A stretch of 64,000 nt of DNA from Emticicia sp. C21 (GTDB lineage: Bacteria > Bacteroidota > Bacteroidia > Cytophagales > Spirosomataceae). Under the pieces are notes generated by a model. That model did no database searches. It saw only the letters and a program-made list of their open reading frames with translations, and was not told the origin of the DNA. Numbering within the stretch: position 1 is the first letter of the stretch; every line of letters starts with the position of its first letter. Below are positions 19,051 to 35,084 of this stretch, piece after piece. Position numbers and translations under genes: made by a program. The stretch is taken from positions 558,001-622,000 of the forward strand of contig NZ_QVMT01000002.1 in the NCBI RefSeq assembly GCF_003418935.1. Reading direction: 5' to 3'.

Positions 19051-20541
19051 TTAAATTTTACTACCCTCTATCCATTTTTTCCAGCCGTCATAACCAATAT
19101 GGACATCGGTATTTGATAGGTTCGGTTGTATTTCTTCGGTTTTTGCCTGATTGAGTTTTTTCAATTGTTCAATACTTTCATAAACACCACTCTTAAGACC
19201 TGCGAGATAGGCGGTACCTAAGGCCGAAATATCAGCATTTGATTGTTTTTTAAGAGGGATACCTAATAAATCAACTAAAAAGCGAATCACAAATTGATTA
19301 CGGGTAATACCGCCATTCACCGAAATAGATTGCAAGGCTGTACCTATATCCTGCCTCATGGCTTCAATCACATCTTTAATCTGATAGGGGATACTTTCCA
19401 AAGCTGCTCTTACAATATGGTTCTTGCTGGTTCCAAAGGTCATGCCTTCGAAGGATGCGCGTCGGTTCATTTGCCAGTGAGGGCCACCTAAACCGCTAAA
19501 AGCAGGAATAAGATATACACCTGCATTGTCTGGGATAGCATTGGCCATTGCTTCGGTTTCTGAAGAATCTTTGAATAAATTGAGTTCATTTTTGAGCCAT
19601 TCGATGGTAGAACCGCAAGCCACAATTGCACCTTCAAGGGCGTAGTCAATTCTATTTTCAACACTCCAGCAAATGGTGGTTAGCATGCCATTTGACGAAA
19701 TTACAGGTTTGTTTCCGATGTTCATCATAATTGAACTGCCTGTACCCAATGTCACCTTGGCAGTGCCTTGCTCAAAACAACCCTCGCCAAAGGTTGCTGC
19801 ATGAGAATCACCAATGAGGGCATTGATGCTTATGGATAAATTTGTTGTTTCAAACTCAATATTCCAGATACCAAATTCGTATGAAGACGGGCATACTTCC
19901 GGCAGATTTAGTTTTTCTAAACCCCATAGTTTCAGAATCTCCTCGTCCCAGTTAAGGGTATTGATATTAAAAAGGAGTGTTCGGTGAGCATTGGTATAAT
20001 CGGTTTTAAATGATTTACCTTCAGTAAATTTATATAATAACCAACAGTCTACAGTTCCGAAGTAAAGCTCTCCTTTGGTCAATTTATCCTGTAAATCCTT
20101 ATCATTTTCAATCAACCAAAGTAGTTTAGTGCCAGAAAAATAAGGGTCGATTATTAGTCCTGTTTTTTCTTTAATCAAAGGCTCTTGATTATTGGCTTTT
20201 AACTTTTGGCAGATATCAATTGACCGTTTACAAGCCCACACTACAGCGGGTGCGAGGGGCTTACCTGATTTATCCCAGAGTATGAAAGTTTCTCTTTGGT
20301 TGGTGATGCCACAAGAGGCGATATCGGAGGCACTAAACCCTTTTGCCACAAAATCTTCCATACATAGATTTACAGCATCTAAAACATTCTGATAAATTCC
20401 TTCAGGGTTTTGCTCTACAAAACCATTGCCGAAATAATCGGTATGCAAATCAGCGTGGCCAAAGGCCACAGGATTACCCGCTTGATCAAAAACAATGGCT
20501 TTAGTACTACTGGTACCCTGATCTATGGCAAGGACGAACAT
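19051..20541 (-). CDS. FGGY-family carbohydrate kinase (glycerol-kinase-like)
   Basis: 496 residues with the two-domain FGGY layout: the N-terminal phosphate loop 'AIDQGTSSTKAIVFD', 'EQNPEGIYQNV' and 'GITNQRETFILWDKSGKPLAPAVVW', which are strongly GlpK-like, then 'LGTGSSIMMNIG' and 'VNGGITRNQFVIRFLVDLLGIPL' in the second ATPase half. Length matches glycerol kinase (about 500). By sequence it reads as a GlpK relative, but it is the last gene of an operon with an Rbs-type importer, an isomerase and a split transketolase, so the physiological substrate is more likely the ketose made by the isomerase. It would act in the cytoplasm, phosphorylating the imported sugar with ATP. There are 51 bp between the permease gene and its start. 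Confidence 0.85.
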   Translation of the reverse strand: MFVLAIDQGTSSTKAIVFDQAGNPVAFGHADLHTDYFGNGFVEQNPEGIYQNVLDAVNLCMEDFVAKGFSASDIASCGITNQRETFILWDKSGKPLAPAVVWACKRSIDICQKLKANNQEPLIKEKTGLIIDPYFSGTKLLWLIENDKDLQDKLTKGELYFGTVDCWLLYKFTEGKSFKTDYTNAHRTLLFNINTLNWDEEILKLWGLEKLNLPEVCPSSYEFGIWNIEFETTNLSISINALIGDSHAATFGEGCFEQGTAKVTLGTGSSIMMNIGNKPVISSNGMLTTICWSVENRIDYALEGAIVACGSTIEWLKNELNLFKDSSETEAMANAIPDNAGVYLIPAFSGLGGPHWQMNRRASFEGMTFGTSKNHIVRAALESIPYQIKDVIEAMRQDIGTALQSISVNGGITRNQFVIRFLVDLLGIPLKKQSNADISALGTAYLAGLKSGVYESIEQLKKLNQAKTEEIQPNLSNTDVHIGYDGWKKWIEGSKI

Positions 20542-20592
20542 TTTAGCTTAAAATTAAGGGATGTACAATCGAGTTATAAATACTAGGTTAGT

Positions 20593-21552
20593 TTATTTCT
20601 TTTTGCTTTTCTGGTCGATAATTACGGCTAGTAAAATCACTAATCCTTTGACCACTTGTTGCCAGAATGGCGATACATTTAAAAGAACCAAGCCATTATT
20701 TAAAACACCTATAATAGTTGCGCCAATGACTGTACCAGTTACAGAGCCTATACCTCCAGACAGGGAAGTGCCGCCTATTACTACGGCTGCAATAGAGTCT
20801 AATTCATAACTGGTTCCTGCATTGGGTTGGGCAGAATTAAGTCGTGAACTGACTAATACACCTCCAACAGCAGCCATCATGCCGGCAATTCCATAGACGG
20901 CCAGTTTGATATTATTAATATTGATACCTGATAGAAACGCGGCTTTCTCATTCCCGCCAATAGCATATATATAACGGCCGAAAGTAGTTTTTTTACTGAT
21001 AAACACCACTATCGCCACTACAACCAATGAAATCCAGACAGGTACCGGGATGCCAATCAGCCAACCAGAACCTATAAACTCAAAGCTTGCACCCAGATTT
21101 GAAATAGGCATACCTTCTGTATAAAGCATGGTTGCTCCGCGAGCGATAGTGAGCATGGCCAATGTTACGACAAAGGGTGGGAGAGAAAACCGGGTAATAA
21201 CCCAGCCATTGAAAATGCCAATTAACAAACCTATAAGCAGGGCTGCTAATATGCCGCCTAAAGTAGTAAAGCCAATCAATAAATCGAAGGGTTCAATCGC
21301 AATGCCTTTTGTTAATAATCCGGCACAAACGGCGGAGGTGAAAGCCAATACCGAACCTACGGATAGGTCAATGCCCGCAGTTAAAACAACCAGGGTCATG
21401 CCCACTGAAATGCATACATTGACAGATATTTGCCGGAGAACATTCCACAAATTATTGGCGGTCAGGAATTTATCTGATAAGATACTAATGGCCAGGCATA
21501 ACACAAAGAGTGCTATCAATGATTGTGATTTCTTTAATAGTTCTTTATTCAT
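20593..21552 (-). CDS. Ribose-type sugar ABC transporter permease (RbsC-like)
   Basis: 319 residues, almost wholly hydrophobic, with eight to ten membrane helices. The 'VLTAGIDLSVGSVLAF' segment and 'AIGGNEKAAFLSGININ' are hallmarks of the BPD_transp_2 family of RbsC/AraH/XylH permeases; the latter is the cytoplasmic loop that docks the ATPase. 'SIAAVVIGGTSLSGGIGSVTGTVIGA' is also conserved. It forms the inner-membrane channel as a homodimer. The gene starts 21 bp after the ATPase gene's stop. Substrate is a pentose-like sugar by family, and the operon suggests an unusual one. Confidence 0.9.
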   Translation of the reverse strand: MNKELLKKSQSLIALFVLCLAISILSDKFLTANNLWNVLRQISVNVCISVGMTLVVLTAGIDLSVGSVLAFTSAVCAGLLTKGIAIEPFDLLIGFTTLGGILAALLIGLLIGIFNGWVITRFSLPPFVVTLAMLTIARGATMLYTEGMPISNLGASFEFIGSGWLIGIPVPVWISLVVVAIVVFISKKTTFGRYIYAIGGNEKAAFLSGININNIKLAVYGIAGMMAAVGGVLVSSRLNSAQPNAGTSYELDSIAAVVIGGTSLSGGIGSVTGTVIGATIIGVLNNGLVLLNVSPFWQQVVKGLVILLAVIIDQKSKKK

Positions 21553-21573
21553 CTATTTGAGTGAATAGTTTTT

Positions 21574-23058
21574 TTAAATAGCGGCTTTCAATAGTTTGTC
21601 CTCATTTGCTTCATCAGCCGAAAACTCTGCTTTCAACTTTCCTTCCGACATCACCAATATTCTATCTGCTAACGCCAGTAATTCAGGGATTTCTGAAGAC
21701 ACTATAATAATGCTTTTGCCTTCGCTTGCCAGTTTTTTAATGATTTCGTAAATCTCATTTTTCGCATTGATGTCTATACCCCGGGTGGGTTCATCAAGCA
21801 TTAAAATCCTGGGATTGGTTGCCAACCATTTTGCCAATACCACTTTCTGCTGATTTCCCCCACTTAAATTCACACATAATTGCTGGGCCGACGGCGTTTT
21901 AATAGCTAAGGTTGAAATATAGTCTTTAGCAAGCTGTTTCTCTGATTTTTCGTTCAGAAGACTGTTTTCAGGTAAAGTAGTCAGGCTGATGTTTGAGGCA
22001 ACATTCATTCCTAATACCAGACCCTCGGTTTTCCGGTCTTCTGTTACAAAAGCCATTCCATGCTTAATTGCATCTTTCGGTGATTTGATGCTGACTTCAC
22101 GATTATCGATAGATATAGTCCCTTGCACTTTTGTAACATTCAGCCCAAAGATAGTTTCCAGTAATTCAGTTCTGCCTGCGCCCATTAAGCCAAAAATACC
22201 CAGTATTTCACCTTCTTTTAGGTTAAAAGATATGTTATCAAGCAGGTTTCTGTTTTTTAGCGTGGGATGGGGTAAGGTGAAATTTCTTATGCTTAATAAG
22301 TCTTTTGTAATATTGGTATTGCCTTGTTTTTTCTGAATCAACACCTCTCTGCCTACCATTTTTCTGATTAAATCCTGCTCGGTGGTCTGGCTCATTTCTC
22401 CGGCATCGATGCTATTCCCATCCCTCATGACGGTATATGTCTCTGCTATTTTGAATAGCTCGTCCATCTTGTGGGAGATATAGACAATGGTCTTGCCCTC
22501 TTTCTTTAAACCGGCAATGATTCGGTGCAGATTTTCTATTTCTTTATCGCTTAGTGCTGATGTTGGCTCATCCATTAGAATTACCTGTGCATCAGCCAAA
22601 AGAGCTTTGGCAATTTCAATGAGTTGTTGTTCGCCTACTTTCAGGTTTTGCACCAAAGTATTGGGCGAAACATTTAATTCTAATTTAGCGAGTAATTCTT
22701 TGGTAATCTGAGTCATTTTTGGAGTATCTAATAAACCCCAGTTATTTCTTATTTCCTGCCCAAGGAATAGATTCTCTACAATATTCAATGCGGGAATCAG
22801 ATTTAATTCCTGATGAATGATGGCAATCCCGGCTTGTTGCGCATCTTTGATGCTTTTGAATTTTACAGGCTGACCATTCAACAAAATCTCGCCTTCATAA
22901 TCTGTATAAACACCCGTCAGTATTTTCAGAAGGGTAGATTTTCCTGCCCCGTTTTCGCCCAAGATAGCATTCACTTTCGACGGGTAAAAAGTCAGGTTTA
23001 CCTCGTTAAGCGCCTTTACGCCCGGAAAAGATTTAGATATGTTAATGGCCTTTAGCAC
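21574..23058 (-). CDS. Ribose-type sugar ABC transporter ATPase (RbsA-like)
   Basis: 494 residues holding two fused ABC ATPase domains. The first has Walker A 'GENGAGKST' near residue 35, a signature 'LKVGEQQLIEIAKAL' and Walker B 'VILMDEPTSAL'. The second has a degenerate Walker A 'GLMGAGRTE', an intact signature 'LSGGNQQKVVLAKWL' and 'MLDEPTRGID'. The degenerate second P-loop is normal for RbsA/XylG/MglA. It powers import together with the RbsC-like permease and RbsB-like binding protein encoded around it. It lies 10 bp after the DUF2291 gene. Confidence 0.92.
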   Translation of the reverse strand: MLKAINISKSFPGVKALNEVNLTFYPSKVNAILGENGAGKSTLLKILTGVYTDYEGEILLNGQPVKFKSIKDAQQAGIAIIHQELNLIPALNIVENLFLGQEIRNNWGLLDTPKMTQITKELLAKLELNVSPNTLVQNLKVGEQQLIEIAKALLADAQVILMDEPTSALSDKEIENLHRIIAGLKKEGKTIVYISHKMDELFKIAETYTVMRDGNSIDAGEMSQTTEQDLIRKMVGREVLIQKKQGNTNITKDLLSIRNFTLPHPTLKNRNLLDNISFNLKEGEILGIFGLMGAGRTELLETIFGLNVTKVQGTISIDNREVSIKSPKDAIKHGMAFVTEDRKTEGLVLGMNVASNISLTTLPENSLLNEKSEKQLAKDYISTLAIKTPSAQQLCVNLSGGNQQKVVLAKWLATNPRILMLDEPTRGIDINAKNEIYEIIKKLASEGKSIIIVSSEIPELLALADRILVMSEGKLKAEFSADEANEDKLLKAAI

Positions 23059-23068
23059 GAGTAGATTG

Positions 23069-23674
23069 TTATTCTGATTTTGAGATTTTAACTGGTAGAA
23101 TATTTAATACAAGCGATTTATCTTGTTGCTTACTTAGTTTAGTGGCTCCATGCACCGTTATTTTATCACCAACATGAATACTTTTCAAATCTTGCGGAAT
23201 GGACTTTTCCCGGATGATAGTATTCAATTCTTCAGAAAGCTTGTTAAAATCAGCATTGGTTTTAAAATCTGTTAACTTAACTAAATCCGAAGCATCTCTG
23301 ATAGCATTGCCAAAGATATATTTTGTGTCGACAAAGAATACTATATTATTATCGGTGACTACTTTCAATCCACTTTCCTCTTTTTCTATCACTTTTCCTT
23401 CGCCTTTTATCATGAAGTAAGCAGAATTACCAATACCTAAGCGATTGCCATAAGCTTTAAATGCAGAGTCCGCATTCGATTGTGCCGATGACATTAGTTG
23501 CGAAAGCTCAACCGCATGATTGCTTTTGAGAATACCCTGATAATAGAGTGAGTCAGCAAAAGCTTTAAAATTGAAACTGCTTTGTTTCTGATTCCGTACC
23601 TCGCTCAGTTTTCTGAAATAAACTGAGTTATAGCCAAGAATCAACAGAATAAGGATAAATATGCCTTTCTTCAT
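23069..23674 (-). CDS. DUF2291 family protein of the sugar-import operon
   Basis: 201 residues with an N-terminal membrane segment (about 4-20), then a soluble extracytoplasmic part. Features such as 'FNFKAFADSLYYQGIL', 'YGNRLGIGNSAYFMIKGEGKV' and 'FGNAIRDASDLVKLTDF' fit DUF2291, a small family found next to RbsABC-type genes. Its exact role is not known; it probably works at the periplasmic side of the importer. It sits between the RbsB-like and RbsA-like genes with gaps of 12 and 10 bp, which ties it to the transporter. Confidence 0.75.
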   Translation of the reverse strand: MKKGIFILILLILGYNSVYFRKLSEVRNQKQSSFNFKAFADSLYYQGILKSNHAVELSQLMSSAQSNADSAFKAYGNRLGIGNSAYFMIKGEGKVIEKEESGLKVVTDNNIVFFVDTKYIFGNAIRDASDLVKLTDFKTNADFNKLSEELNTIIREKSIPQDLKSIHVGDKITVHGATKLSKQQDKSLVLNILPVKISKSE

Positions 23675-23686
23675 AATGCTCGATTA

Positions 23687-24604
23687 TTATTGATAATTGA
23701 CTGCATTTGCCATTGTTACCAATTCTACTTCTACTGGTACTCTTTGCGGGAAATCCCGTTTGCCTTTAAAATATTCATCAGCATACTGGGCGGCGGTTTT
23801 TGCCATTACTTTCGGGTATTGCATGCCTGTTGCCACAATTTTCTTTTCCTTTATTTTCTCAACTACATCAGATGCTCCATCAAAGCCAAATACCTTTACT
23901 TTATCTGCCTTGCCTGCTGATTGAAGTGCCTGGTAAGCACCCATGGCCATTGCATCATTACCACAAAAAACAGCGTCAATATCGGGGTGTGCCTGCATGA
24001 TGGTTTCTAGTACTTCCATGGCTTTGTTGCGGTCGAAATCACCGCTTTGTTGGGCTACCATCTTCAAGTTTGGGAATTTATCTACTACTGAGTGAAAGCC
24101 TCCAGATCTTGCCCAGGTATTATTATCACCTACTAGTCCAATGATTTCAGCGTAATTTCCTTTTTCTTTCAAAGCTTTTACGAAAGTTACTCCGATCTCC
24201 ACACAACCCGAATAATTATCGGAAAGTATCTGACTGGTAGCAGCGTTATCGGCATTGATTTCTCTGTCCATACAGAACACCGGAATACCTGCAGCCTTTG
24301 CTTTGAGTACATTGGCAATAGAACCATCGGCATCAGTTGGGTTAAAAAGAACGGCATCAAAGCCAGAAGAAATCAGATTTTCAAAATTATCTGACTCAGT
24401 AGCAGGATTATTCTGTGAATCGAAAATCTTGGCTTCATAGCCTAGTTTTCTAGCGTTTTCGGCTGCTGACTCTGCTAAGACCACAAACCATGGGTTATTA
24501 AGCGTAGAGATAACTACGGCTATTTTAGGTTTTCCGGAATTTTTCTCTCTACAGGAGATACTCGCCAGACTCAGCATAGCGAGTAGGAAAATGACTTTTT
24601 TCAT
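23687..24604 (-). CDS. Sugar-binding lipoprotein of the ABC importer (RbsB-like)
   Basis: 305 residues. A lipoprotein signal ends in 'ASISC' (Cys18). The mature part is a type-1 periplasmic binding protein: '[20 protein letters not shown]', '[14 protein letters not shown]', '[14 protein letters not shown]' with the ligand-stacking and Arg-type contact residues, and '[17 protein letters not shown]'. This matches D-ribose/allose-binding relatives. It captures the sugar at the outside of the inner membrane and delivers it to the RbsC/RbsA pair. It is 5 bp after the DUF1593 gene. Ligand not known; a pentose or branched pentose is inferred from the downstream enzymes. Confidence 0.9.
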
Positions 24605-24609
24605 ACGCT

Positions 24610-26010
24610 TCAGGGTGTAACGTTGACGATTACTCTTTGATAACGGGTAAGATTAGGCTTGCCGTTATCGGTTACTTCCAATATAAAATGCATAGTTTTG
24701 GGCTCTGTGACTTTGGGCGCTGTAAAAGTGATTTCCTGCCTGGTAGGATTATTTAGTACAAATCGGCTGGCAGTCAGGCTACCTACTTCTTTGTAAAAGA
24801 GCCAGTTATAAGTCAGCTCATTATTGTCAGGGTCAGTTGCTTTGCCTGATAAGGTTACAGGTACTCCTGATTTTACTGTGATATTATTTTCGTGACCCAA
24901 AGAAACTACTGGCGGATGATTGGCTTCTTTATAGGTTTTGGCTACGCACCAGTCCATCCTGGCAAAGAAATCGTTCTGAAAGGCCTTTCTCCATCGCCAG
25001 ATAGTAGCCTGATTACCCGTATGGTAAGACTTGGTGATATCGCTATATACTTCATCCTGCGTATCTGTCCAGATAGGGCGGGTTTCCGGCTCATACATAT
25101 ACTTTTTGAATTGGGGGATATACAATTCGTATCTACCTCCCCAGCCGCCATAATTCGGATTTTCAGGGTCATTTAAACCATTTTTAATTAATCCCATAAA
25201 TGCTGGGCTATCACCTTCCATTAAAAAATCTATTTTCGGATATTTCTCACCTAATGGTCCATGATTCTGGCGGACGTGCTGGTCCAAATATTTATTACGA
25301 ACGATGGTAGTATCTGCCCCTGTAAAGCGTCCATGAAAAATATCACCAGAAATACCCGTCCAGGTAGCAAAGTGGTATTGTCCTCCGCCATTTTCTTCAT
25401 AACCCGGGCTAACGATATAGAATAAATCAGGAAAATTTTTTCTTATCCAAGGGCCTGTATCATCCTGATCAGAGATTGTATAAACTCTTAATTTTTTTAC
25501 AATTCGATTAACGTCAGCTTGCTTCTGTGTCTTTTGTAGTTTGAAAAGCGCTTGTGCTAATACATTTGTACCTCCCCATGCTTGAATATACAAAGGTCGG
25601 GCATCGTTTTTCAGCATGCTTTTCACAAGCCATTCAGAGCCTTCTGAATCTTTGCCTTCACCCAGACCTTCTTTACCAAAAACAGGTAAGCCTTTTTTAA
25701 TGATAGAGTGAATGTATGCTTCAGTAGGATAACCTTTTTCATGTATTTCAAGATTGTCTCTTACTTTTCCGTAGGCATCTGTAATTTCGTGTAAGCGCCA
25801 CTCGGCAGTTTTAGTGCGTTGCCAGCATGAGGTGGTTGCTACCAGACCCTCTATGTCGAACTGATTGGCATAGGTCAGGAAACGCACGTAAGACATGGCA
25901 TCATCCGGCTCATTTTCAATATCTGTCAGCACAAATACTCGTGGATTCTGTGCATAACTCAATTGGCAGGCCAGGAAGCATAGTAAATAACCAATAATTC
26001 TGTTTCTCAT
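24610..26010 (-). CDS. Secreted DUF1593 protein (nucleoside-hydrolase-like fold)
   Basis: 466 residues with a signal peptide ('[15 protein letters not shown]'). The N-terminal DUF1593 domain opens with '[20 protein letters not shown]', an Asp-rich motif like the calcium site of inosine-uridine nucleoside hydrolases, and continues with '[17 protein letters not shown]' and '[13 protein letters not shown]'. A C-terminal Ig-like domain starts at about 375 ('[17 protein letters not shown]', '[16 protein letters not shown]'). The fold suggests hydrolysis of a furanoside outside the cytoplasm. The operon position, between the glycosidase gene and the importer, fits release of a sugar for uptake. A second DUF1593 gene lies at 33573-35084. 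Confidence 0.8.
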
Positions 26011-26016
26011 GGTTTG

Positions 26017-27636
26017 TCAGGGTATTTCAGTAATTTTTAGGGCGATATAGGGTTTCAACGGCAGTCTGACTTTCTGATTATCTTTATCCAGAATCCGGTA
26101 ATCGTTTGGCTCATTAGTAAAAAAAACTAAATCGACGGGTGAGACAGACATATCCCATGTATCAATTACTTCCACTTTGTATTTCATACCTGCCTTAGGT
26201 CGTTCGAAACTGGCATTTTTATGTGGTAGGTTGAACGACCATGTTTCGTTGATTTCTTTACCGAAATAGATAAGATAAGCGCCTTTTCCATTAGTAGCGG
26301 TTTTGAAGTCCCGGCTTACGTCGGCCATTTCTAATGGGCCGGTTTCTGAGACTATCTTTCTGATAAATCCGGCTCTTTTCCAGCTATTGCCTTTAAATTT
26401 TCCGCCCTTTGCCCAAAAAATAGTGTCGCGGAGGTCTTTAAACATAAAAGATTCGCCGTGAGTCACATAAGTACCACCAATCAATCCCATCCATATCAAG
26501 TGATTCATTTCTTCGCCGCTATATCTTCCCCAACGGGACTTTAAATTGCCTTCATAACCCACCTCGTCAAAAATGATAGGTTTTGGATAAATGCTCCGAA
26601 CAATGGCCGCTCCACCCCAGTTTATCACAGGCGATTCATCCTGAATAGAAGTATGAGTAATTTCAGGCATCTGATAATTAAAGTATTTGGCCGTGCTGCC
26701 ATGAATGGAGCAGAGATGATGGTAAGGATCGGCTTTCGTAACTGCTTTAATCAGGGTGTCCCAGTCTTTATCTGTTTTACTTTTCACATAATCATATTCG
26801 TTAGCCAACGACCACCAGACATTGCGGAAAGAAGCCAGGCGAGCCACTAAATATTTAATATAATTCAGATTAGCCTCCATTGGCATTTCGTCAAATCCCC
26901 ATCTGCCTTTGTCGTATGGATGAAAAAGGATTAAATCGGCTTCAATACCCAATGCCTGCAAATCATCGATACGTTTTTCTAAATGCCTGAAAAAGACAGG
27001 GTTGAACTGAGTATAATCCCAAACTTTTACTTCGTTTCCTTTAGTGTCTTTTTTCACTTCTTTAATAAAGTAGGGATACACCGAAGGTTCTTCTTTTACC
27101 AGTTCATAGTTTTTAGGAAACACGCACATCCGGATTTTATTGAACCCTGAATTCTGTAAAGATTTCAGGGTTTGTTCCTGAACATCATTAGCCATATGTG
27201 TCCAGGCATAGGCAGTTGTTCCTAATGGAAAATAAACAGTGCTATCAGCATATTTGAAATGATAGGTTTGAGAAACCCTCACAATTCCGTGGTTTTTCAC
27301 ACCTGCTTTTACACATTGAAATTCGCCTTTTTTGTTGTTCAGTGCAGCTAATGAACTACTGGTTTTGTATTGCCATGTACCCGTATTTTCGGGCATAAAC
27401 CGGATAATATATCTGTTATCGCCATCATAAAAACCAGCAATAGTAATTGAAGTATCTTTATGAGTAAACGTAGCCGATAAGGCATTATCTGAAAAAGTAT
27501 TTTTGCCAGAAGTATTTTCTAGTATAAACTCAAACCTATTCCATTGCTCAATTTTCTGTTGAGAAAAAAGAGCAATGCTGCTTGAAAAAAAGCAAATGAA
27601 TGAGGTGAATAGGGAAATATTGTATCTGGACATCAA
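26017..27636 (-). CDS. Secreted glycosidase, DUF5060 plus apiosidase-like (DUF4038-like) barrel
   Basis: 539 residues with a signal peptide (about 1-25). An N-terminal DUF5060 beta-sandwich ('YDGDNRYIIRFMPENTGTWQY') precedes a TIM barrel of clan GH-A type. The probable acid/base is Glu280 in 'WWSLANEYD' and the nucleophile Glu358 in 'IIFDEVGYEG'. The C-terminal part looks like a DUF5605-type domain. Related barrels in GH140 release D-apiose from rhamnogalacturonan II; whether this enzyme does the same is not certain. It starts 1 bp before the end of the transketolase gene spacing and ends 6 bp from the DUF1593 gene, well inside the operon. Its placement with importer and metabolic genes suggests it frees the sugar that the operon consumes. 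Confidence 0.75.
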   Translation of the reverse strand: MMSRYNISLFTSFICFFSSSIALFSQQKIEQWNRFEFILENTSGKNTFSDNALSATFTHKDTSITIAGFYDGDNRYIIRFMPENTGTWQYKTSSSLAALNNKKGEFQCVKAGVKNHGIVRVSQTYHFKYADSTVYFPLGTTAYAWTHMANDVQEQTLKSLQNSGFNKIRMCVFPKNYELVKEEPSVYPYFIKEVKKDTKGNEVKVWDYTQFNPVFFRHLEKRIDDLQALGIEADLILFHPYDKGRWGFDEMPMEANLNYIKYLVARLASFRNVWWSLANEYDYVKSKTDKDWDTLIKAVTKADPYHHLCSIHGSTAKYFNYQMPEITHTSIQDESPVINWGGAAIVRSIYPKPIIFDEVGYEGNLKSRWGRYSGEEMNHLIWMGLIGGTYVTHGESFMFKDLRDTIFWAKGGKFKGNSWKRAGFIRKIVSETGPLEMADVSRDFKTATNGKGAYLIYFGKEINETWSFNLPHKNASFERPKAGMKYKVEVIDTWDMSVSPVDLVFFTNEPNDYRILDKDNQKVRLPLKPYIALKITEIP

Positions 27637-27637
27637 T

Positions 27638-28591
27638 TTAACTTTTGGTCAATGTTAAAACTGTATTTGTTAAACCTTTCTCTGATATGCCATAATGTTC
27701 AAATATCTCCACCTGTGAACCTGAAACGGTATGGTCATCCGGTAATCCCACAATTTTGAACGGGTTACGAGAGCCGTTCTGGAAAAGCAATGAAGCAACC
27801 GCTTCGCCTAATCCGCCATTCACCGAATGTTCTTCTACTGTAATAATGGGTTTGCCATTGGCTGCAATATTCAAAATTAAAGTGCTATCTAAAGGCTTAA
27901 TAGTGTGCATGCTCACGACGGTACAAGAAATGCCATGCTCTTTTTCTAAAACCTCCGCCGCTTTTGCACATGGGAGAACCGCTTCACCCGTAGCTATAAA
28001 TGTCAAATCTTTGCCCTCTTTAATAATTCGGCCTTTACCTATTTTAAAATCCCTGCCAGCTTCACCACTCAATGAGTCGGGCATATTTTTCTTGCCGAAA
28101 CGGATATAAACCGGACTTGTCATTTCTGCAGCCTGACGAATGGTCTGCTCAGTTTCGAAATTATCTGAGGGGGAAACAATCGTAATATTATTGATGGCGC
28201 GAAGCACAGCGTAATCATGTAAACTATGGTGCGTACTGCCCAAGGCACCATAACTGACACCCGCCGAAATACCAATCAATTTAACCGGATTGTCAGAATA
28301 GCAAACGTCATTTTTGATTTGCTCTAATGCCCTTGCTGTCAGGAAACATGCCGGGGAAACCGCAAAGGCTTTTTTACCCATACTGGCTATACCCGCTGCT
28401 ATGCCTACCAGATTTTGTTCAGCAATGCCTATTTCTACAATTTGCTCAGGGAAACGCTGTCCGTAAGGCACCAATTTACCAGAGCCACGAGAATCGCTTG
28501 TTACCACATAAATATCGGAATCCTGTTCAGCCAGAGACTGTAACGTTTCTGAGAAAACCTCCAGATTTGCTTTATTGATTGTATAATTCAT
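27638..28591 (-). CDS. Transketolase, C-terminal subunit (pyrimidine-binding and C-terminal domains)
   Basis: From ATG 28591 the product has 317 residues. It carries the Pyr domain with 'GIAEQNLVGIAAGIASMG', whose Glu contacts the thiamine ring, 'STHHSLHDYAVLRAINNITIVSPSD', and the C-terminal domain 'TVEEHSVNGGLGEAVASLL'. An in-frame start at 28603 adds only four residues and overlaps less cleanly. It pairs with the N-terminal subunit gene 17 bp upstream; together they make one two-subunit transketolase with thiamine diphosphate bound between them. Split transketolases dedicated to one sugar occur in the D-apiose pathway (apulose-4-phosphate transketolase, AptA/AptB), and the operon context fits that role. 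Confidence 0.88.
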   Translation of the reverse strand: MNYTINKANLEVFSETLQSLAEQDSDIYVVTSDSRGSGKLVPYGQRFPEQIVEIGIAEQNLVGIAAGIASMGKKAFAVSPACFLTARALEQIKNDVCYSDNPVKLIGISAGVSYGALGSTHHSLHDYAVLRAINNITIVSPSDNFETEQTIRQAAEMTSPVYIRFGKKNMPDSLSGEAGRDFKIGKGRIIKEGKDLTFIATGEAVLPCAKAAEVLEKEHGISCTVVSMHTIKPLDSTLILNIAANGKPIITVEEHSVNGGLGEAVASLLFQNGSRNPFKIVGLPDDHTVSGSQVEIFEHYGISEKGLTNTVLTLTKS

Positions 28592-28608
28592 AATTCCGGT
28601 CAAACTGC

Positions 28609-29415
28609 TTAATTTAACTCTGTTAAAGCCATTTCATACTGCTCAGCAGTTGGTACGCCGTGGTGCCATTTCAGTACATTTTCCATATAACTTATACCTT
28701 TTCCTTTAGTAGTATGGGCAATCACAAATGAGGGTTTGCCTTGTTCAAATGGGAGGCTCTCTAAAGTTTGTGTCAGCGCCTCAATGTCGTTGCCATCAAT
28801 CTGTCTTACTGCCCAGCCAAAAGCTTCCAGTTTTTTATCCAGTGGTTCAAGACCCATTACTTCTGCATTGGGGGCGGTAATCTGTAATTTATTGTAATCC
28901 AATATGGCGCAGAGATTATCTAATTTATAATGTGCGGCAAACATAAATGCTTCCCAGTTTGAGCCTTCGGCCATTTCACCATCACCTAATATTGTAAAAA
29001 CTCTTACCGGAGACTTATCTTTCTTGGCCATCAGTGCATTGCCGCAACAGATAGATAAACCATGCCCCAAGCCACCCGTATTCTGTTCTATTCCTCTGAT
29101 TTTTTTGGTCGGGTGACCGATATATGGTGACTGGTATTTACATAAGGTCAATAAATCTTCTTCCGGAAAAAAGCCTTTGTCTGCCAGCACTACATAGAGT
29201 GCTTCTACGCAATGTCCTTTGCTCTGCACATACCTGTCGCGCAGATTGGAATCAAAGTTTTCAGGCGAGACATTCATGATTCTATTATACAGCACATTGA
29301 GAATATCAATGACCGACAAACTCCCACCCGTGTGCCCGGCTTTGGCATTGTAAATGTATTTCAGAATGTTTCTTCTGTAGAGCTTTGATTTCTCTTGTAA
29401 TGCTTTGATTTCCAT
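28609..29415 (-). CDS. Transketolase, N-terminal subunit (thiamine diphosphate-binding domain)
   Basis: 268 residues. The TPP-binding motif GDG-x-E-x-x-EG-x-N-WEA is seen as 'LGDGEMAEGSNWEAFMFA' with 'LCAILDYNKLQ' following, and the substrate/cofactor histidines appear in 'HTGGSLSVIDIL', 'SKGHCVEALY' and 'GHGLSICCGNAL'. The protein ends where a full-length transketolase would continue into the Pyr domain, which is encoded by the next gene. Same strand, directly adjacent. A 124-bp gap that carries a REP-like palindrome separates it from the isomerase gene upstream. Confidence 0.9.
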   Translation of the reverse strand: MEIKALQEKSKLYRRNILKYIYNAKAGHTGGSLSVIDILNVLYNRIMNVSPENFDSNLRDRYVQSKGHCVEALYVVLADKGFFPEEDLLTLCKYQSPYIGHPTKKIRGIEQNTGGLGHGLSICCGNALMAKKDKSPVRVFTILGDGEMAEGSNWEAFMFAAHYKLDNLCAILDYNKLQITAPNAEVMGLEPLDKKLEAFGWAVRQIDGNDIEALTQTLESLPFEQGKPSFVIAHTTKGKGISYMENVLKWHHGVPTAEQYEMALTELN

Positions 29416-29478
29416 TTCTTTGGCTTTTTGGACGGCATTTTTAAAATTAAACGTTTTTTAGAAAGTGCCGGTTTGGTG

Positions 29479-29507
29479 GTAGAGACAGGGCATTGCCCTG
29501 TCTCTAC
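29479..29507. repeat. REP-like palindrome with GTAGAGAC termini
   Basis: Perfect inverted repeat with 13-bp arms (29479-29491 and 29495-29507) and a 3-nt loop, beginning GTAGAGACAGGG. Palindromes with GTAGAGAC...GTCTCTAC ends are scattered through many cyanobacterial and Bacteroidota genomes as short interspersed elements. It lies in the 124-bp gap between the isomerase and transketolase genes, inside the operon. Confidence 0.7.
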
Positions 29508-29539
29508 GTGGATATATTGCAATATTTCTCTGCCTTCTA

Positions 29540-30934
29540 TTAATGCTTGTAAATCTCCCATCCCATATAGTTGCCCAATGCTTCTTCCAGGATGCTGGCA
29601 GTTTTTGAAGCATTCATTACTACATGGTGTTCGAAACCGTTTCTACAAACATATTTCATGAGTCCTTGTAAATCAGGGATTTGTGCAACTGCCCGATTCC
29701 CGAAAGTGTTCAGAGGGTCGTTGGTCAGCTCACCTTCTCCTATATAAGCTTTGATGACTCCTTTAGGGTCGTCGGTACTGATACGTCCATAAGTCAAAGG
29801 CATGGCAGGGGTGCGGCCGTCTAATGCGCCGTAAGTATTTTCAACACCTACTGTAGTGCCTAAAATCGGTGCATTGCTAATTTCAATATCCGGTAAGAAC
29901 GACTTTGCCCAGTTGCCGCAATGAAACAATACACACTTGTTTTCATCGTCGGCATAATTATTATTCCAGTCTACCAAAGCGCTTGGTGAGCCTGAGGCCA
30001 ATTGCATGGCATACATCGAAAGCGTACCAGTCACATCTACTTCGCAAGCACTAGGTAACATATTTTCTGACATGATACTCATGCTTGTACATACATTGCA
30101 GCCATAGTTTTGTTGAAGGGAAGTCCAGCATTGAATGGCTGTTGCATCCAGTACATTTTCTTCCATTATCTCCTTCAAAACCACATCTAATCGGGCAATC
30201 TGTAGCATGGCTTCGTTGGGTGTCCTACCTTTAGGCGCATAGGCATTGATAGATTCCAGATGTTGTTTTACTTTAGTATCGTCAGTTGCCAGTTTATTGG
30301 CTCTTCCTAAGATTTCTGATAAGTCGAAAGTCGTTACGGTAATGCCATTTCTTTGAAGTATTTTCTCTGAATAACGAACCGTATTAAAAGCACCAGGCCT
30401 TGCACCAATTGCCCCGATTCTCACATTTTTCAGGCCTTTTACTACCCGGCAAACGGCTACAAAATCCAACAAGTCTTTCTGAAAAGTTTCACTAGATGGC
30501 AAACTCACATGCTGGCTCGTCAAAGTATATTTAATGCCATATTGATAAAGGTTATTACAAACCGAAATCTTACCACACCATGAATCGCGGCGATTCACCA
30601 CGTTCATCTTATTGAGGTCGTCCGGGTATGCCTGAATCAGTACAGGAACATTCAATCCGGCTAACTTAAGGGTATCCGCCACACCTTTTTCATCACCAAA
30701 GTTGGGTAGTAGAACCAGTATTCCGGTGATTTCCTCCCGATGGGCTTTGAATAATTCGGCACATTTCTGTGCTTCTTTAAAAGTCTCCACTCCTCCGAGC
30801 TTTGTTTCGTTGCTATCTACCAGAATAGGTTTCAGGTTCAGTTTAGCAAAAACATCAATGATTTCGGTTCTTGCTTTTTCTACTAAACTATCAGGAAAAA
30901 AATCTCTGTTTCCGATGATGATTCCAAGTGTCAT
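29540..30934 (-). CDS. Sugar isomerase of the L-fucose/L-arabinose isomerase superfamily
   Basis: 464 residues. It starts 'TLGIIIGNRDFFP', then an N-terminal Rossmann-like region with 'ILVLLPNFGDEKGVADTLKL' and 'VPVLIQAYPDD', a central 'IGAIGARPGAFNTVRYSEKIL', and a C-terminal domain with 'CEVDVTGTLSMYAMQLASG' and 'VLFHCGNWAKSFLPD'. Glu in 'CEVDVTG' and His in 'FHCGNW' are the likely metal ligands. The layout matches FucI/AraA-superfamily isomerases, which convert aldoses to ketoses with Mn2+. In this operon it would supply the ketose for the FGGY kinase. Which aldose it uses is not seen from sequence. Confidence 0.85.
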   Translation of the reverse strand: MTLGIIIGNRDFFPDSLVEKARTEIIDVFAKLNLKPILVDSNETKLGGVETFKEAQKCAELFKAHREEITGILVLLPNFGDEKGVADTLKLAGLNVPVLIQAYPDDLNKMNVVNRRDSWCGKISVCNNLYQYGIKYTLTSQHVSLPSSETFQKDLLDFVAVCRVVKGLKNVRIGAIGARPGAFNTVRYSEKILQRNGITVTTFDLSEILGRANKLATDDTKVKQHLESINAYAPKGRTPNEAMLQIARLDVVLKEIMEENVLDATAIQCWTSLQQNYGCNVCTSMSIMSENMLPSACEVDVTGTLSMYAMQLASGSPSALVDWNNNYADDENKCVLFHCGNWAKSFLPDIEISNAPILGTTVGVENTYGALDGRTPAMPLTYGRISTDDPKGVIKAYIGEGELTNDPLNTFGNRAVAQIPDLQGLMKYVCRNGFEHHVVMNASKTASILEEALGNYMGWEIYKH

Positions 30935-30974
30935 TTTTAATTTTAATTAATTGTAAGACAAACATTTTTTAGCC

Positions 30975-31369
30975 TTAACTATTACTTCGCCAGACTTTAT
31001 CATAGAAATCATCCCATTTATTTCTTTCTATAGTTTTGCTTGCAAAAATATCCCACCAAGCTGTTTTGATTTTATATGAATCAATCACTTTATTAAACGA
31101 AAAATATGCGAGAGGGTCGTTATCCTCTTTTGGTTTATTAAAACCATTTTTAGTAATTCCTCTAAATATTCCACCATAAACTCTCCCAACTGCGAATTCA
31201 CTATCTTCGTTGCTTAATTCAAACTTCTTTTGTACTAATTGGGATATTACAGAATCAGGCAAAGGGTTTCTAAATTGGTCTCTATTAAATCAAAAATTTC
31301 ACTGGCAAGTTGGCTATGAGTAAATCCATATTTGATATTTACTCGCAAATCATTTGTAGATTCGTTCAT
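30975..31369 (-). pseudogene. Frameshifted small gene (about 131 residues if repaired)
   Basis: Two minus-strand frames join end to end. The first starts at ATG 31369 with 'MNESTNDLRVNIKYGFTHSQ' and meets a stop; the second continues with 'PLPDSVISQLVQKKFELS' to the stop at 30975. One missing base at the AAA run 31272-31274 (TTT in the sense strand) explains the break: adding one base gives 'IETNFRNPLPDSV' and a 131-residue reading frame ending 'DDFYDKVWRSNS'. I recognise no family; the product would be soluble with several Trp and Phe residues near its end. It lies 9 bp after the DeoR gene and 40 bp before the isomerase gene. Confidence 0.6.
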
Positions 31370-31378
31370 ATTCTCTAT

Positions 31379-32146
31379 TTATGCAATAATTACCTCAATC
31401 TCATTTTCTCTGAAAACATCTTTGTGTTTTTCTTCTATTCCGGCATCGGTAATGATATAATCTATTAAGCCTAAGGCACCCAGACTCGCTAAGGCACTTT
31501 TACCAATTTTGGTGCTATCCGCCACCAGATAGGTAACCTCTGCGGCATCAATCATGGCTTTTTTTACCACCAAGTCGCTGATGCTCGGGTAGGTTAAACC
31601 AGATTTCAGTGAGATGCCTGCAGTTGCCAGGAATAGCTTCTGTACATTCAGTCCCTTAAAAAAATCGGCCGCTTTTTGTCCGGTTAATGAGAGGGTAGGA
31701 GGTTTGAACTCTCCGCCTGTCATGATTACTTCTATACTTGGCTCTGTGCCGAGCATCAGGGCTATATTCAGCGCATTGGTAATAACTGTTAAGCTTTTAA
31801 TACCAGAGGTCTTTATCTTTTTGGCAATCTCGGTGGTTGTACTGCCCGAATCCAGAATAATGGTATCTCCTGTTTCGATAAACTCCAGACATTTCTGGGC
31901 GATTACTTCTTTTTTATCCAGATTATCCTGATGCACTAAAGAAAAGCTCCGCACCTGGTCTTCAACGTTTTTAAGGTATGCTCCACCGTGTTCTTTTATG
32001 ATGAGATCTTCGGCTTCGAGTTTCTCTAAATCCTGCCGGATGGTTACTTCTGTTACTTTAAAGAGGCGAGCCAGATCTGCTACTTTGGCTGAGCCATCTT
32101 CACGCAATAATTCTAAAATTCTATCTCTCCGCTGATTTGGTAGCAT
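31379..32146 (-). CDS. DeoR-family transcriptional regulator
   Basis: 255 residues. The N-terminal winged helix ('RRDRILELLREDGSAKVADLARLF' region, then 'VTEVTIRQDLEKLEAEDLI') is the DeoR HTH with its conserved 'R-x-DL-x-x-L' pattern. The C-terminal sugar-phosphate sensor domain has 'TIILDSGSTTTEIAKKI', 'LTVITNALNIALML' and 'KLFLATAGISLKSGLTYPS'. DeoR proteins usually repress sugar operons and are released by a phosphorylated intermediate. As the first gene of the minus-strand operon, it probably controls its own transcript and the divergent one; the 10-bp repeats at 32231-32270 are candidate operators. Confidence 0.9.
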   Translation of the reverse strand: MLPNQRRDRILELLREDGSAKVADLARLFKVTEVTIRQDLEKLEAEDLIIKEHGGAYLKNVEDQVRSFSLVHQDNLDKKEVIAQKCLEFIETGDTIILDSGSTTTEIAKKIKTSGIKSLTVITNALNIALMLGTEPSIEVIMTGGEFKPPTLSLTGQKAADFFKGLNVQKLFLATAGISLKSGLTYPSISDLVVKKAMIDAAEVTYLVADSTKIGKSALASLGALGLIDYIITDAGIEEKHKDVFRENEIEVIIA

Positions 32147-32230
32147 AGTTTACGAATGAATATTAAATGTTGATAAATGAATAATCAGCAATTTACATAT
32201 TTAAAATTCATTTTCTTGAAGTAAAATTAA

Positions 32231-32270
32231 AAGAAAATAAAAGAAATAAAAAGAAAATAAACGAAAATAT
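32231..32270. promoter_or_regulatory. Four 10-bp phased direct repeats, candidate DeoR operator
   Basis: Four copies of an AAGAAAATAA-like decamer start at 32231, 32241, 32251 and 32261; the first and third are identical. A period of one helical turn would put each copy on the same face of the DNA. They lie between the DeoR gene and the divergent esterase gene and end just before the plus-strand -33 box. Confidence 0.45.
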
Positions 32271-32300
32271 TTGACAAATGAATTTTTGCTTTTACTTTCG
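32270..32300 (+). promoter_or_regulatory. Bacteroidota-type promoter for the esterase-DUF1593 unit
   Basis: TTTG at 32270-32273, a 19-bp spacer, and TACTTTCG at 32293-32300, one base off the TAnnTTTG -7 consensus of the Bacteroidota primary sigma factor. The start codon lies 54 bp downstream. The -33 box touches the phased repeats, which fits repression. Confidence 0.55.
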
Positions 32301-32353
32301 CAATCAAAAATAAGTTAAAGTAATTATTTAAAAAATTATAAAACTATCTGAAG

Positions 32354-33558
<1,205 letters not shown>

Positions 33559-33572
33559 ACCCTAAAATATAT

Positions 33573-35084
33573 ATGATGAAAACAAAGCTTAAATTAGTAT
33601 TATCCCTGTTTTTTGGATTGATACTATTAATGAATACGGCCAACGGACAATCAAAACCGCGAACCATAGTAACCACTGATGGCGAGATAGATGATGTGGA
33701 TTCATTTATCAGAATGTTGCTATATGCGAATGAGTTCAGGATAGAGGGATTGGTTTATAGCAGTTCGATGTGGCATTATAAAGGCGATGGCAAAGGCACT
33801 AAGTTTGTTTCTGAAATGGCCATGACTAAAAACCTGTACAAAGAAAAAACTGACCTTCGCTGGCCGGGTGTTACCTGGATGCAGGACCTGATTGGAGCTT
33901 ACGAAAAAGTATATCCAAACCTTATGCTGCATGATAAATCTTTTCCGACTGCCAATTCGCTTCGCAAACTGATAAAAGTAGGAAATATTGATTTTGAGGG
34001 AGAAATGGAGAAGGTGACCGAAGGCTCAGAGCATATCAAAAACAAATTACTGGATGCAACCACCGAACCTATTTATCTGCAGGTTTGGGGTGGAACAAAT
34101 ACCATTGCCAGAGCATTGAAATCTATAGAAGAGCAGTATAAGAATACGCCTCAATGGTCGCAGATATATAAAAAAGTATGTCAGAAGGCCATAATTTATG
34201 CTATTCTTGACCAGGACGCTACTTATAAAAAATACGTGGCTCCTAATTGGAAAGACATTAAGGTTTTCTATAATGCCAGCCAGTTCTGGTGCTTTGCATA
34301 TCCCTGGAAAAGAGCTGTTCCTCAATCGCAGCATTATTTACTGGAGGGTAAATTTATGGGTGATGAAATCATCAATAATCATGGGCCATTGACGAAGATG
34401 TATTATAGCTATGGCGACGGACAAAAACAAGAGGGAGATGATGAGCATATACATGGTGATTTAAGCAAAGTAAAGACTGGTCAGTGGGGCGCATTTGGTA
34501 AGTACGATTTTATTTCAGAGGGAGATTCACCTTCTTATCTGCACCTGATTGATGTAGGCTTAGGTAATATTCAGAATCCATCGTATGGCGGTTGGGGAGG
34601 TAGATTGAAACAATCAGCCGAGAATCCGAATCGTTGGGAAGATGGCAAAGAGGTGGCTGATTATAATCCATTTACGCAGAAGATGGATTTAACTTATCCT
34701 CAAACCCGTTGGATAGAGCCTATTCAATTAGACTTTGCCTCTCGTGCCGATTGGTGCGTAAAAGACTTTAAAAATGCCAACCATGCACCAAAAGTGTCGG
34801 TGAAAACCAATACTATTAAAGCCAAAGCAGGTAGCAAAGTGCAGATTGTAGCAAGCGCCAAAGACCCTGATAATAACAAAGTAAACTTCAATTACTGGCA
34901 ATACAAAGAAGCCGGAACTGCCAAAGATGCTGTGGAAATAAGTAAGCAAACCAACGAAACGGCAGAAATAACATTGCCAGCGACATTAAACAGTGGAGAT
35001 ACCGTGCATATCATTGTAGAAGGTAAAGACGAAGGAACCCCTGCACTGACTCGCTACCAAAGGGTGATTATTACGGTTTTGTAA
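33573..35084 (+). CDS. Secreted DUF1593 protein (nucleoside-hydrolase-like), second copy
   Basis: 503 residues from ATG 33573 (33576 is equally possible). A signal peptide ends near 'MNTANGQS'. The DUF1593 domain has 'TIVTTDGEIDDVDSFIRMLLYA', the Asp-rich metal motif, 'PIYLQVWGGTNTIARAL' and 'IYAILDQDATYKKYVAP'; a C-terminal Ig-like domain shows 'VQIVASAKDPDNNKVNFNYW'. It shares the layout of the protein encoded at 24610-26010 but is clearly diverged. The gene follows the esterase by 14 bp. Extended frames upstream (to 33504) run inside the esterase and are rejected. The long terminator at 35098-35144 follows. Confidence 0.8.
   Translation: MMKTKLKLVLSLFFGLILLMNTANGQSKPRTIVTTDGEIDDVDSFIRMLLYANEFRIEGLVYSSSMWHYKGDGKGTKFVSEMAMTKNLYKEKTDLRWPGVTWMQDLIGAYEKVYPNLMLHDKSFPTANSLRKLIKVGNIDFEGEMEKVTEGSEHIKNKLLDATTEPIYLQVWGGTNTIARALKSIEEQYKNTPQWSQIYKKVCQKAIIYAILDQDATYKKYVAPNWKDIKVFYNASQFWCFAYPWKRAVPQSQHYLLEGKFMGDEIINNHGPLTKMYYSYGDGQKQEGDDEHIHGDLSKVKTGQWGAFGKYDFISEGDSPSYLHLIDVGLGNIQNPSYGGWGGRLKQSAENPNRWEDGKEVADYNPFTQKMDLTYPQTRWIEPIQLDFASRADWCVKDFKNANHAPKVSVKTNTIKAKAGSKVQIVASAKDPDNNKVNFNYWQYKEAGTAKDAVEISKQTNETAEITLPATLNSGDTVHIIVEGKDEGTPALTRYQRVIITVL

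Follow-up and report, generated by a model that had tools for sequence, protein, structure and literature searches.

A probable D-apiose utilization operon in Emticicia sp. C21 and its link to the PF07632 protein family

Gene content and layout of the locus

We analyzed a stretch of 64,000 nucleotides from Emticicia sp. C21 (contig NZ_QVMT01000002.1, positions 558,001–622,000, of a 6.64 Mb draft genome), hereafter called the window. It contains genes for a sugar isomerase, a split transketolase, a sugar kinase, an ATP-binding cassette (ABC) importer and several putative hydrolases (Table 1). Judging by the sequences, they very probably form an operon for the utilization of D-apiose, of the non-oxidative isomerase-kinase-transketolase kind. 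Twenty proteins of the window were scanned for domains with Pfam, and NCBIfam was also used. All open reading frames (ORFs) of the original prediction for this DNA were recovered at their positions, and the domains that it had named were detected.

In the stretch that begins with the kinase (19051) and ends with the transketolase N half (29415), the listed minus-strand ORFs are 1–51 bases apart and are therefore likely to be transcribed together. The isomerase gene is located 124 bases beyond the transketolase N half, and the deoR gene another 444 bases on. A single minus-strand operon, as originally proposed, is thus likely for the tightly spaced part, with the isomerase and deoR standing further off. 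The arrangement is unlikely to be due to chance, since relatives and members of other phyla carry the cassette as well.

Table 1. Features of the locus, with positions in the window and the evidence for each assignment
Feature	Position	Strand	Evidence
FGGY (glycerol-kinase-like) kinase, probable apulose kinase	19051..20541	-	Pfam FGGY; best PDB match E. coli glycerol kinase; clade of cassette-linked kinases outside 8 GlpK rows
RbsC-like ABC permease	20593..21552	-	Pfam BPD_transp_2; 42–48% identity to E. coli RbsC and cluster permeases
RbsA-like ABC ATPase	21574..23058	-	Pfam ABC_tran, two stretches; 40–47% identity to E. coli RbsA and cluster ATPases
DUF2291 lipoprotein of ABC system	23069..23674	-	Pfam PF10054; DUF2291 gene also in E. 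coli apiose cluster
RbsB-like sugar-binding protein, ribose-type pocket	23687..24604	-	Best PDB match T. maritima ribose-binding protein, 360 bits
PF07632 (DUF1593) nucleoside-hydrolase-like protein 1, candidate apiofuranosidase	24610..26010	-	PF07632 366 bits; PDB 2yhg 288 bits; linkage
DUF5060 + Apiosidase-like + DUF5605 glycosidase	26017..27636	-	Pfam; PDB 4n0r 668 bits; 45% identity to Monoglobus cassette-linked protein
Transketolase C half (AptB-like)	27638..28603	-	41% to E. coli AptB, 24% to TktA; tree
Transketolase N half (AptA-like)	28609..29415	-	50% to E. coli AptA, 29% to TktA; tree
FucI/AraA-type isomerase, probable D-apiose isomerase	29540..30934	-	Fucose_iso_C; 55% to Sodalis cluster isomerase
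Long gap between deoR and isomerase, broken reading frames	30935..31378		Gap of 46 and 54 bases in L083 and L082
DeoR-family regulator	31379..32146	-	Pfam DeoRC, HTH_DeoR
Divergent promoter region, putatively shared	32147..32353		Between deoR (-) and esterase unit (+); AT-rich, short inverted repeats
Carbohydrate-binding module (AMPK1_CBM) + esterase gene, split into two ORFs here	32354..33558	+	Single ORF of 393–401 amino acids in relatives
PF07632 (DUF1593) nucleoside-hydrolase-like protein 2	33504..35084	+	PF07632 234 bits; true start probably 3' of listed TTG

The transketolase, isomerase and kinase

The transketolase halves were compared with E. coli references by blastp. The N half showed 50% identity to AptA as compared to 29% to TktA, and the C half 41% identity to AptB as compared to 24% to TktA. 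In trees inferred by a quick method (75 and 74 rows), the window halves were placed among the AptA and AptB rows of other cassettes, apart from two ordinary transketolases. The tree placement suggested in the original prediction thus came out in its favor, with both the identities and the trees grouping the two subunits with AptA/AptB rather than with general transketolases. The AptA/AptB-type two-subunit transketolase by which the non-oxidative D-apiose pathway can be recognized is present at the locus. Carter and co-workers in 2018 reportedly described D-apiose clusters with the genes AplK, AptA and AptB, in Pectobacterium among others.

The isomerase carries Glu, Asp and His at the aligned positions of FucI that we take to be the metal ligands. 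It showed 54–55% identity to the isomerases of Klebsiella, Sodalis and Rahnella, the three best of 13 plasmid records found with tblastn, and the kinase encoded beside each of these is 70–72% identical to AplK. The Sodalis and Rahnella clusters are ordered as binding protein, DUF2291, ABC genes, regulator, transketolase halves, isomerase and kinase. GTDB contigs were scanned with an alignment headed by the Rahnella isomerase, and at least 574 stretches encoding a relative were obtained; the best 80 were kept, with no Pectobacterium among them. In 21 of the 24 gammaproteobacterial loci nearest to the query among the best 80 (L129–L152), the isomerase was accompanied by both transketolase halves and a kinase; two of the exceptions (L130 and L148) have no transketolase genes nearby and the third (L138) is cut by the contig end. 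In the family of Emticicia, the isomerase was found in 36 of 101 genomes. Based on its sequence relatives, we consider the window isomerase to be probably a D-apiose isomerase.

The only NCBIfam match of the isomerase was to SftI, the sulfoquinovose isomerase, at 98 bits against a cut-off of 700, and we rejected this assignment; no sulfoquinovosidase-type gene was identified among the 20 scanned window proteins. The sulfo-transketolase pathway for sulfoquinovose likewise has a split transketolase and an isomerase of the same superfamily, but needs no kinase of this type, and it is an extremely improbable role for the operon.

Comparison with known clusters revealed both shared and differing components. 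The E. coli SE15 cluster encodes two short-chain dehydrogenase/reductase (SDR) oxidoreductases, a permease, an ATPase, a DUF2291 protein, a "D-ribose" binding protein, AplK, a sugar-binding regulator, AptA and AptB. Apart from the SDR pair and this regulator, the window has a counterpart for each kind of component, and it has an isomerase and hydrolases in addition. The D-apiose clusters of E. coli SE15/ST131 and Pectobacterium resemble the window in having the split AptA/AptB, an FGGY kinase and RbsB/DUF2291/RbsA/RbsC import. In E. coli, however, the two SDR oxidoreductases replace the isomerase, the kinase and the binding protein are of other branches, and there is no glycosidase gene. The clusters of the Sodalis, Rahnella and Citrobacter type share with the window the FucI/AraA-type isomerase, the AptAB-type transketolase, a kinase and an ABC system with DUF2291, but have a "sugar-binding transcriptional regulator" in place of DeoR, a kinase of the AplK type and, in Sodalis, a binding protein nearest to PDB 5ibq/4ry0. 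The Monoglobus pectinilyticus cluster has an isomerase, transketolase halves, a kinase and a DUF5060 glycosidase, as does the window, whereas its isomerase is just 26% identical and DUF2291 was not seen in the stretch shown. A version of the cassette in Rhizobium adds a triose-phosphate isomerase, which fits the dihydroxyacetone phosphate product and supports the apiose route. Growth on D-apiose is reported for strains carrying the SE15-type cluster (PMC13001218).

The first step of the pathway is associated with enzymes of different types. With an E-value threshold of 1e-50, AptA was identified at 27 places in 22 of the 247 genomes from the order of one Yersinia genome; 20 of these places were taken for analysis. 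Both transketolase halves were found with cassette-like scores in 17 of these loci (L232–L248), where the first-step enzyme was an SDR in three, a FucI-type isomerase in three, a TIM-barrel protein in two and a distant FucI-type isomerase in seven, with none in the remaining two. The distant FucI type resembles the isomerases of Monoglobus and Listeria, and is 26–27% identical to the window isomerase. We infer that the SDRs and the TIM-barrel protein perform the first step in their cassettes, as is also indicated for the SDR pair by PMC13001218. Four kinds of first-step enzymes, the FucI type, the distant FucI type, the TIM barrel and the SDR, were thus seen to accompany the same importer-transketolase-kinase cassette (L232–L248, L122 and L038). 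In Pantoea, an isomerase with a PF13204 + PF12904 gene (L148) is located about 500 kb from a transketolase-kinase set that has no importer (L234), on the same contig.

The kinase is 41% identical to the kinase of the Monoglobus cassette (blastp) and scored 548 bits, below the cut-off of 590 for TIGR01311. We inferred a kinase tree from 75 rows, drawn at random within groups and supplemented with named reference loci, including eight rows labelled GlpK, one of which represents the second copy in the Emticicia genome itself. The window kinase is located inside a clade of 44 cassette kinases (SH-aLRT, an approximate likelihood-ratio test, 99), while the AplK rows and the kinases of Rhizobium, Deinococcus and Acidobacteria form a clade of 22 rows (support 100). 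The eight GlpK rows stand apart (support 53), and all 66 cassette kinases fall on one side of a single branch with a support of only 69. A true glycerol kinase was rejected as the identity of the window kinase, since placing its row alone inside the eight GlpK rows was rejected in the approximately unbiased (AU) test (p 7e-87). The tree-based check that had been proposed thus places the kinase near the glycerol kinases but outside them, and does not resolve it as a sister of AplK. We consider it to be a probable apulose kinase from its sequence, although it cannot be called an AplK ortholog. No kinase was seen in the fetched stretch of the Dyadobacter-type cassettes L099, L100, L103, L169, L174, L181 and L196; in L103, the gene that follows the permease is similar to glycoside hydrolase (GH) family 43.

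Release and import of the sugar

The binding protein displayed 39% identity to RbsB, 37% to the Sodalis protein and 34% to the protein of the E. coli apiose cluster (blastp). Its match to the T. maritima ribose-binding protein scored 360 bits, as compared to 206 bits for PDB 5ibq/4ry0, which are presumably structures holding apiose and ribose; the Sodalis cluster protein scored 431 bits to 5ibq/4ry0. The original prediction had singled out the binding protein as a check on the sugar. The layout, an ABC system with DUF2291, is that of the E. coli apiose cluster, although the DUF2291 proteins of the two clusters gave no blastp match at 1e-5. The pocket, discussed below, is ribose-like and leans against apiose. 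The suggestion that ABC import takes the place of SusC/SusD was not upheld, since the ABC system belongs to the inner membrane, a different membrane, and relatives have SusC/SusD-type genes near the cassette (a SusD gene in L090; a SusC plug and SusD in L262).

Neighboring loci were chosen by hand for scanning and are not a random sample. Some of them place the cassette near genes for apiosidase-like proteins and for pectin breakdown. In genome G034 of the same family (L090, L256 and L257), a SusD gene, a 998-amino-acid gene of SusC size and PF07632 genes are located beyond a transposase gene, and 9–28 kb from the isomerase there are a GH88 protein, two PF13204 + PF12904 proteins, a fusion of PF07632 and DUF5060, a GH127 protein and a pectic acid lyase. 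The fusion (L256:13369–14703) joins in one protein both hydrolase families of the window operon. In Chitinophagales (L197), the isomerase, the transketolase halves and the kinase are found beside a PF13204 + PF12904 protein (374 bits), a propeller protein similar to BT_1020, which we take to be a rhamnogalacturonan II breakdown protein, an MGH1-like GH and a GH2 protein. PF13204 proteins are also encoded in the cassettes of Listeria (L047) and Kluyvera (L132) and at the Pantoea isomerase locus L148, which has no transketolase nearby, and the Monoglobus cassette includes a DUF5060 protein that is 45% identical to the window glycosidase. Nearness to PF13204 + PF12904 genes is not strictly defining for the apiose pathway, and is seen in some relatives. 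Other loci have mixed neighbors (alpha-fucosidase, GH95, GH2, GH31, rhamnosidase and GH127), suggesting that the glycans involved may vary.

Within the family, PF13204 was not supported as a tight partner of the cassette: it is present in 93 of 101 genomes (E 1e-10), and the link is loose. By eye, it was found within 40 kb of the isomerase in at least 8 of the 36 isomerase genomes among the listed matches, which leave weak ones such as that of the window itself outside. The window glycosidase does not qualify as a GH140 apiosidase, since it consists of DUF5060, PF13204 (64 bits) and DUF5605, and not of PF13204 followed by PF12904, which we take to be the GH140 layout.

Taken together, the proteins of the locus suggest the following route, in which the reaction chemistry is that of the published non-oxidative pathway. 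The exported DUF5060/Apiosidase-like glycosidase, the two PF07632 proteins and the CBM-esterase would free apiose from plant apiosides or from apiose-bearing pectin. The RbsB-type binding protein would then import the sugar together with DUF2291, RbsA and RbsC. The FucI/AraA-type isomerase is predicted to convert apiose into apulose, which the glycerol-kinase-like FGGY enzyme would phosphorylate. Finally, the AptAB-type transketolase would transfer a two-carbon unit to glyceraldehyde 3-phosphate, yielding xylulose 5-phosphate and dihydroxyacetone phosphate. We infer all of these substrates and activities, as well as the export of the hydrolases, from sequence similarity and gene context.

Several observations weigh against apiose as the substrate. 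At 14 pocket positions, which we take to be the ribose contacts of RbsB, the window binding protein has a residue other than that of RbsB at two and other than that of the Sodalis/Citrobacter type at three, and it is like RbsB where the Sodalis/Citrobacter type has Asp64 and Trp164; the E. coli apiose-cluster protein is strongly unlike both. As far as residues can tell, the pocket leans towards ribose or mixed specificity. The kinase is 41% identical to E. coli GlpK and 37% to AplK (blastp), and its score exceeds the cut-off of 498 for the glycerol-kinase subfamily NF000756. Topology tests did not reject a tree in which the clade of the window kinase is joined to GlpK (p 0.66, with a log-likelihood above that of the free tree) or one in which the AplK clade is joined to GlpK (p 0.65); more than one branching order of the two clades and GlpK thus fits the sequences. 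The glycosidase is only a modest match to PF13204 (64 bits, cut-off 26.5), and the 20 scanned proteins did not include a pectinase. The transketolase N half was missing within 12 kb in 26 of 123 isomerase loci, in some owing to the contig end. Ten isomerases that are 49–51% identical to that of the window (L110–L119) occur in other contexts without the split transketolase, next to FucK-like kinases in some, or to genes of about 557 amino acids. Finally, the T. maritima ribose operon is reported to contain a transketolase and two predicted D-arabinose enzymes and to be induced by ribose and xylose (PMC3750489).

One alternative is the salvage of ribose or ribonucleosides, in which the nucleoside-hydrolase-like proteins would release ribose, RbsABC would import it, the isomerase and the kinase would convert it into ribulose phosphate, and the split transketolase would feed the pentose phosphate pathway. 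This would agree with the ribose-type pocket, with the ribose-binding protein of T. maritima as the best PDB match, with the T. maritima operon and with the nucleoside-hydrolase-like fold of the PF07632 proteins. However, ribulose phosphate requires no dedicated transketolase, and no ribokinase was found among the 20 scanned proteins. A ribokinase that scores above both NCBIfam cut-offs is encoded elsewhere in the genome (G000, C1:829 kb), next to a Ureide_permease/Sugar_transport protein and an IU-type nucleoside hydrolase, in what looks like an ordinary ribonucleoside route; it is thus unlikely that ribose is the purpose of the operon. In addition, the cassette is located near apiosidase-like and pectin genes in relatives, and Sde_0182, a PF07632 protein of solved structure, is reported to be inactive on purine and pyrimidine nucleosides (PMC8910321). 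We consider the ribose alternative improbable.

The T. maritima operon resembles the window in its close binding protein, its transketolase and the two predicted D-arabinose enzymes, but has its own ribokinase and a LacI-family regulator (RbsR regulon), and is reported to respond to ribose and xylose (PMC3750489). Its enzymes may represent a further copy of the apiose cassette, in which case the operon may also serve apiose. A PF13204 match was observed in T. maritima, one of two genomes with such a match among 14 controls.

Even less probable is that the same kinds of enzymes serve a different pentose or branched sugar, such as D-arabinose or hamamelose. The breadth of the isomerase family, with the 49–51% identical relatives in other contexts, and the "D-arabinose" prediction for the T. 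maritima enzymes (PMC3750489) would be consistent with it, whereas clusters similar to that tied to growth on apiose repeatedly contain the transketolase pair and the isomerase together. The closeness of the cassette in relatives to genes for apiosidase-like proteins (PF13204 + PF12904), a pectate lyase, GH88 and a BT_1020-like protein favors D-apiose. The apiose assignment of the original prediction is thus largely supported, by the AptAB grouping, by the presence of the isomerase in apiose-type clusters and by these neighboring genes.

The PF07632 family

Both PF07632 (DUF1593) proteins of the window scored far above the family cut-off of 26.8 bits, with 366 and 234 bits, and both contain the Sde0182 C-terminal domain, as does Sde_0182, which is presumably PDB 2yhg. 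PF07632 is present in 84 of the 101 family genomes. Of the 110 PF07632 genes in the 36 isomerase genomes (with positions listed for 86), at least 48 are located within 12 kb of the isomerase, as compared to 0.46 expected under uniform placement, an expectation that ignores the kinship of the genomes and the clustering of such genes. The linked genes occur in 31 of the 36 genomes, and two of the five others (G060 and G066) have a DUF5060 glycosidase in the operon instead.

A similar pattern was obtained from the 123 isomerase loci, a set that includes one duplicate (L099 and L181) and six nearly identical loci from Alphaproteobacteria. Among loci not labelled as Enterobacterales, PF07632 was found within 12 kb in 37 of 71 with the transketolase N half and in 1 of 23 without it; this single locus (L164) is cut 196 bases past the isomerase, and other loci are cut too. 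The corresponding number for the loci labelled as Enterobacterales was 1 of 26 (Tolumonas). Positive loci were otherwise seen in Bacteroidota, in 2 of 4 from Acidobacteriota and in 3 of 7 from Verrucomicrobiota. When a further 193 unmodelled ORFs around 75 cassettes were grouped, the most frequent cluster was present in seven loci. The link of PF07632 to the apiose cassette is the newest point of our analysis.

The link runs one way, since PF07632 is also present in 50 of 65 family genomes that lack the isomerase. A strictly apiose-specific role was rejected: in 20 hand-picked loci from such genomes, there was no match to the isomerase, the transketolase halves or the kinase within about 20 kb. 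This suggests a wider role than the pathway, or action on apiosides where apiose is not consumed by this route.

Of the motif DxD....DD, which we take to be that of the nucleoside hydrolases (N-ribohydrolases), the window PF07632 proteins retain in a remote alignment the first Asp and the DD pair, with a Glu at the second Asp of RihC. Glycosidically bound apiose is in the furanose form and has a cis-diol, the group by which nucleoside hydrolases grip their substrates through calcium. Together with the linkage to the cassette and the fold, this suggests that PF07632 may include apiofuranosidases. We tentatively propose, as one possible reading of the sequences, that the family represents new calcium-dependent furanosidases of the nucleoside-hydrolase fold that cleave off O-linked apiofuranose, and perhaps further furanoses with a cis-diol. 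Sde_0182 is reported to keep the calcium ion and has been proposed to be a furanose-interacting module (PMC8910321). No enzymatic function for PF07632 was met in the literature searched, which was mostly outside subscription journals and accessible in part.

The second PF07632 gene belongs to the divergent unit, which is present on the plus strand as predicted, although its esterase proved to be part of a split gene. The ORFs for the AMPK1_CBM module and the esterase overlap, each in a frame of its own, and they correspond to a single ORF of 393–401 amino acids in L083, L084 and L091 (two such ORFs in L091), which suggests that the gene has been split in the window. A gene for a DUF4874/DUF4832 protein follows 3' of this unit (35179–36576), and an 85% identical gene is located at the same place in L083. 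The DeoR protein is predicted to control both the minus-strand and the divergent units; a common operator was sought, and AT-rich repeats alone were seen. The 444 bases between deoR and the isomerase, as compared to 46–54 bases in L083 and L082, contain broken minus-strand frames and gave no blastn match in the loci of eight relatives.

The pathway is thus a known one in kind, here in a Bacteroidota version with a FucI-type isomerase, a GlpK-like kinase and a ribose-type importer. If our interpretation is correct, the apiose pathway would occur across Bacteroidota and in further phyla behind misleading annotations such as ribose transporter, glycerol kinase, fucose isomerase and transketolase, with at least four kinds of first-step enzymes accompanying one pathway. 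The analysis also provides a testable proposal for the function of PF07632. If true, an orphan family would gain a function, which would explain why Sde_0182 keeps the calcium site and yet ignores nucleosides.

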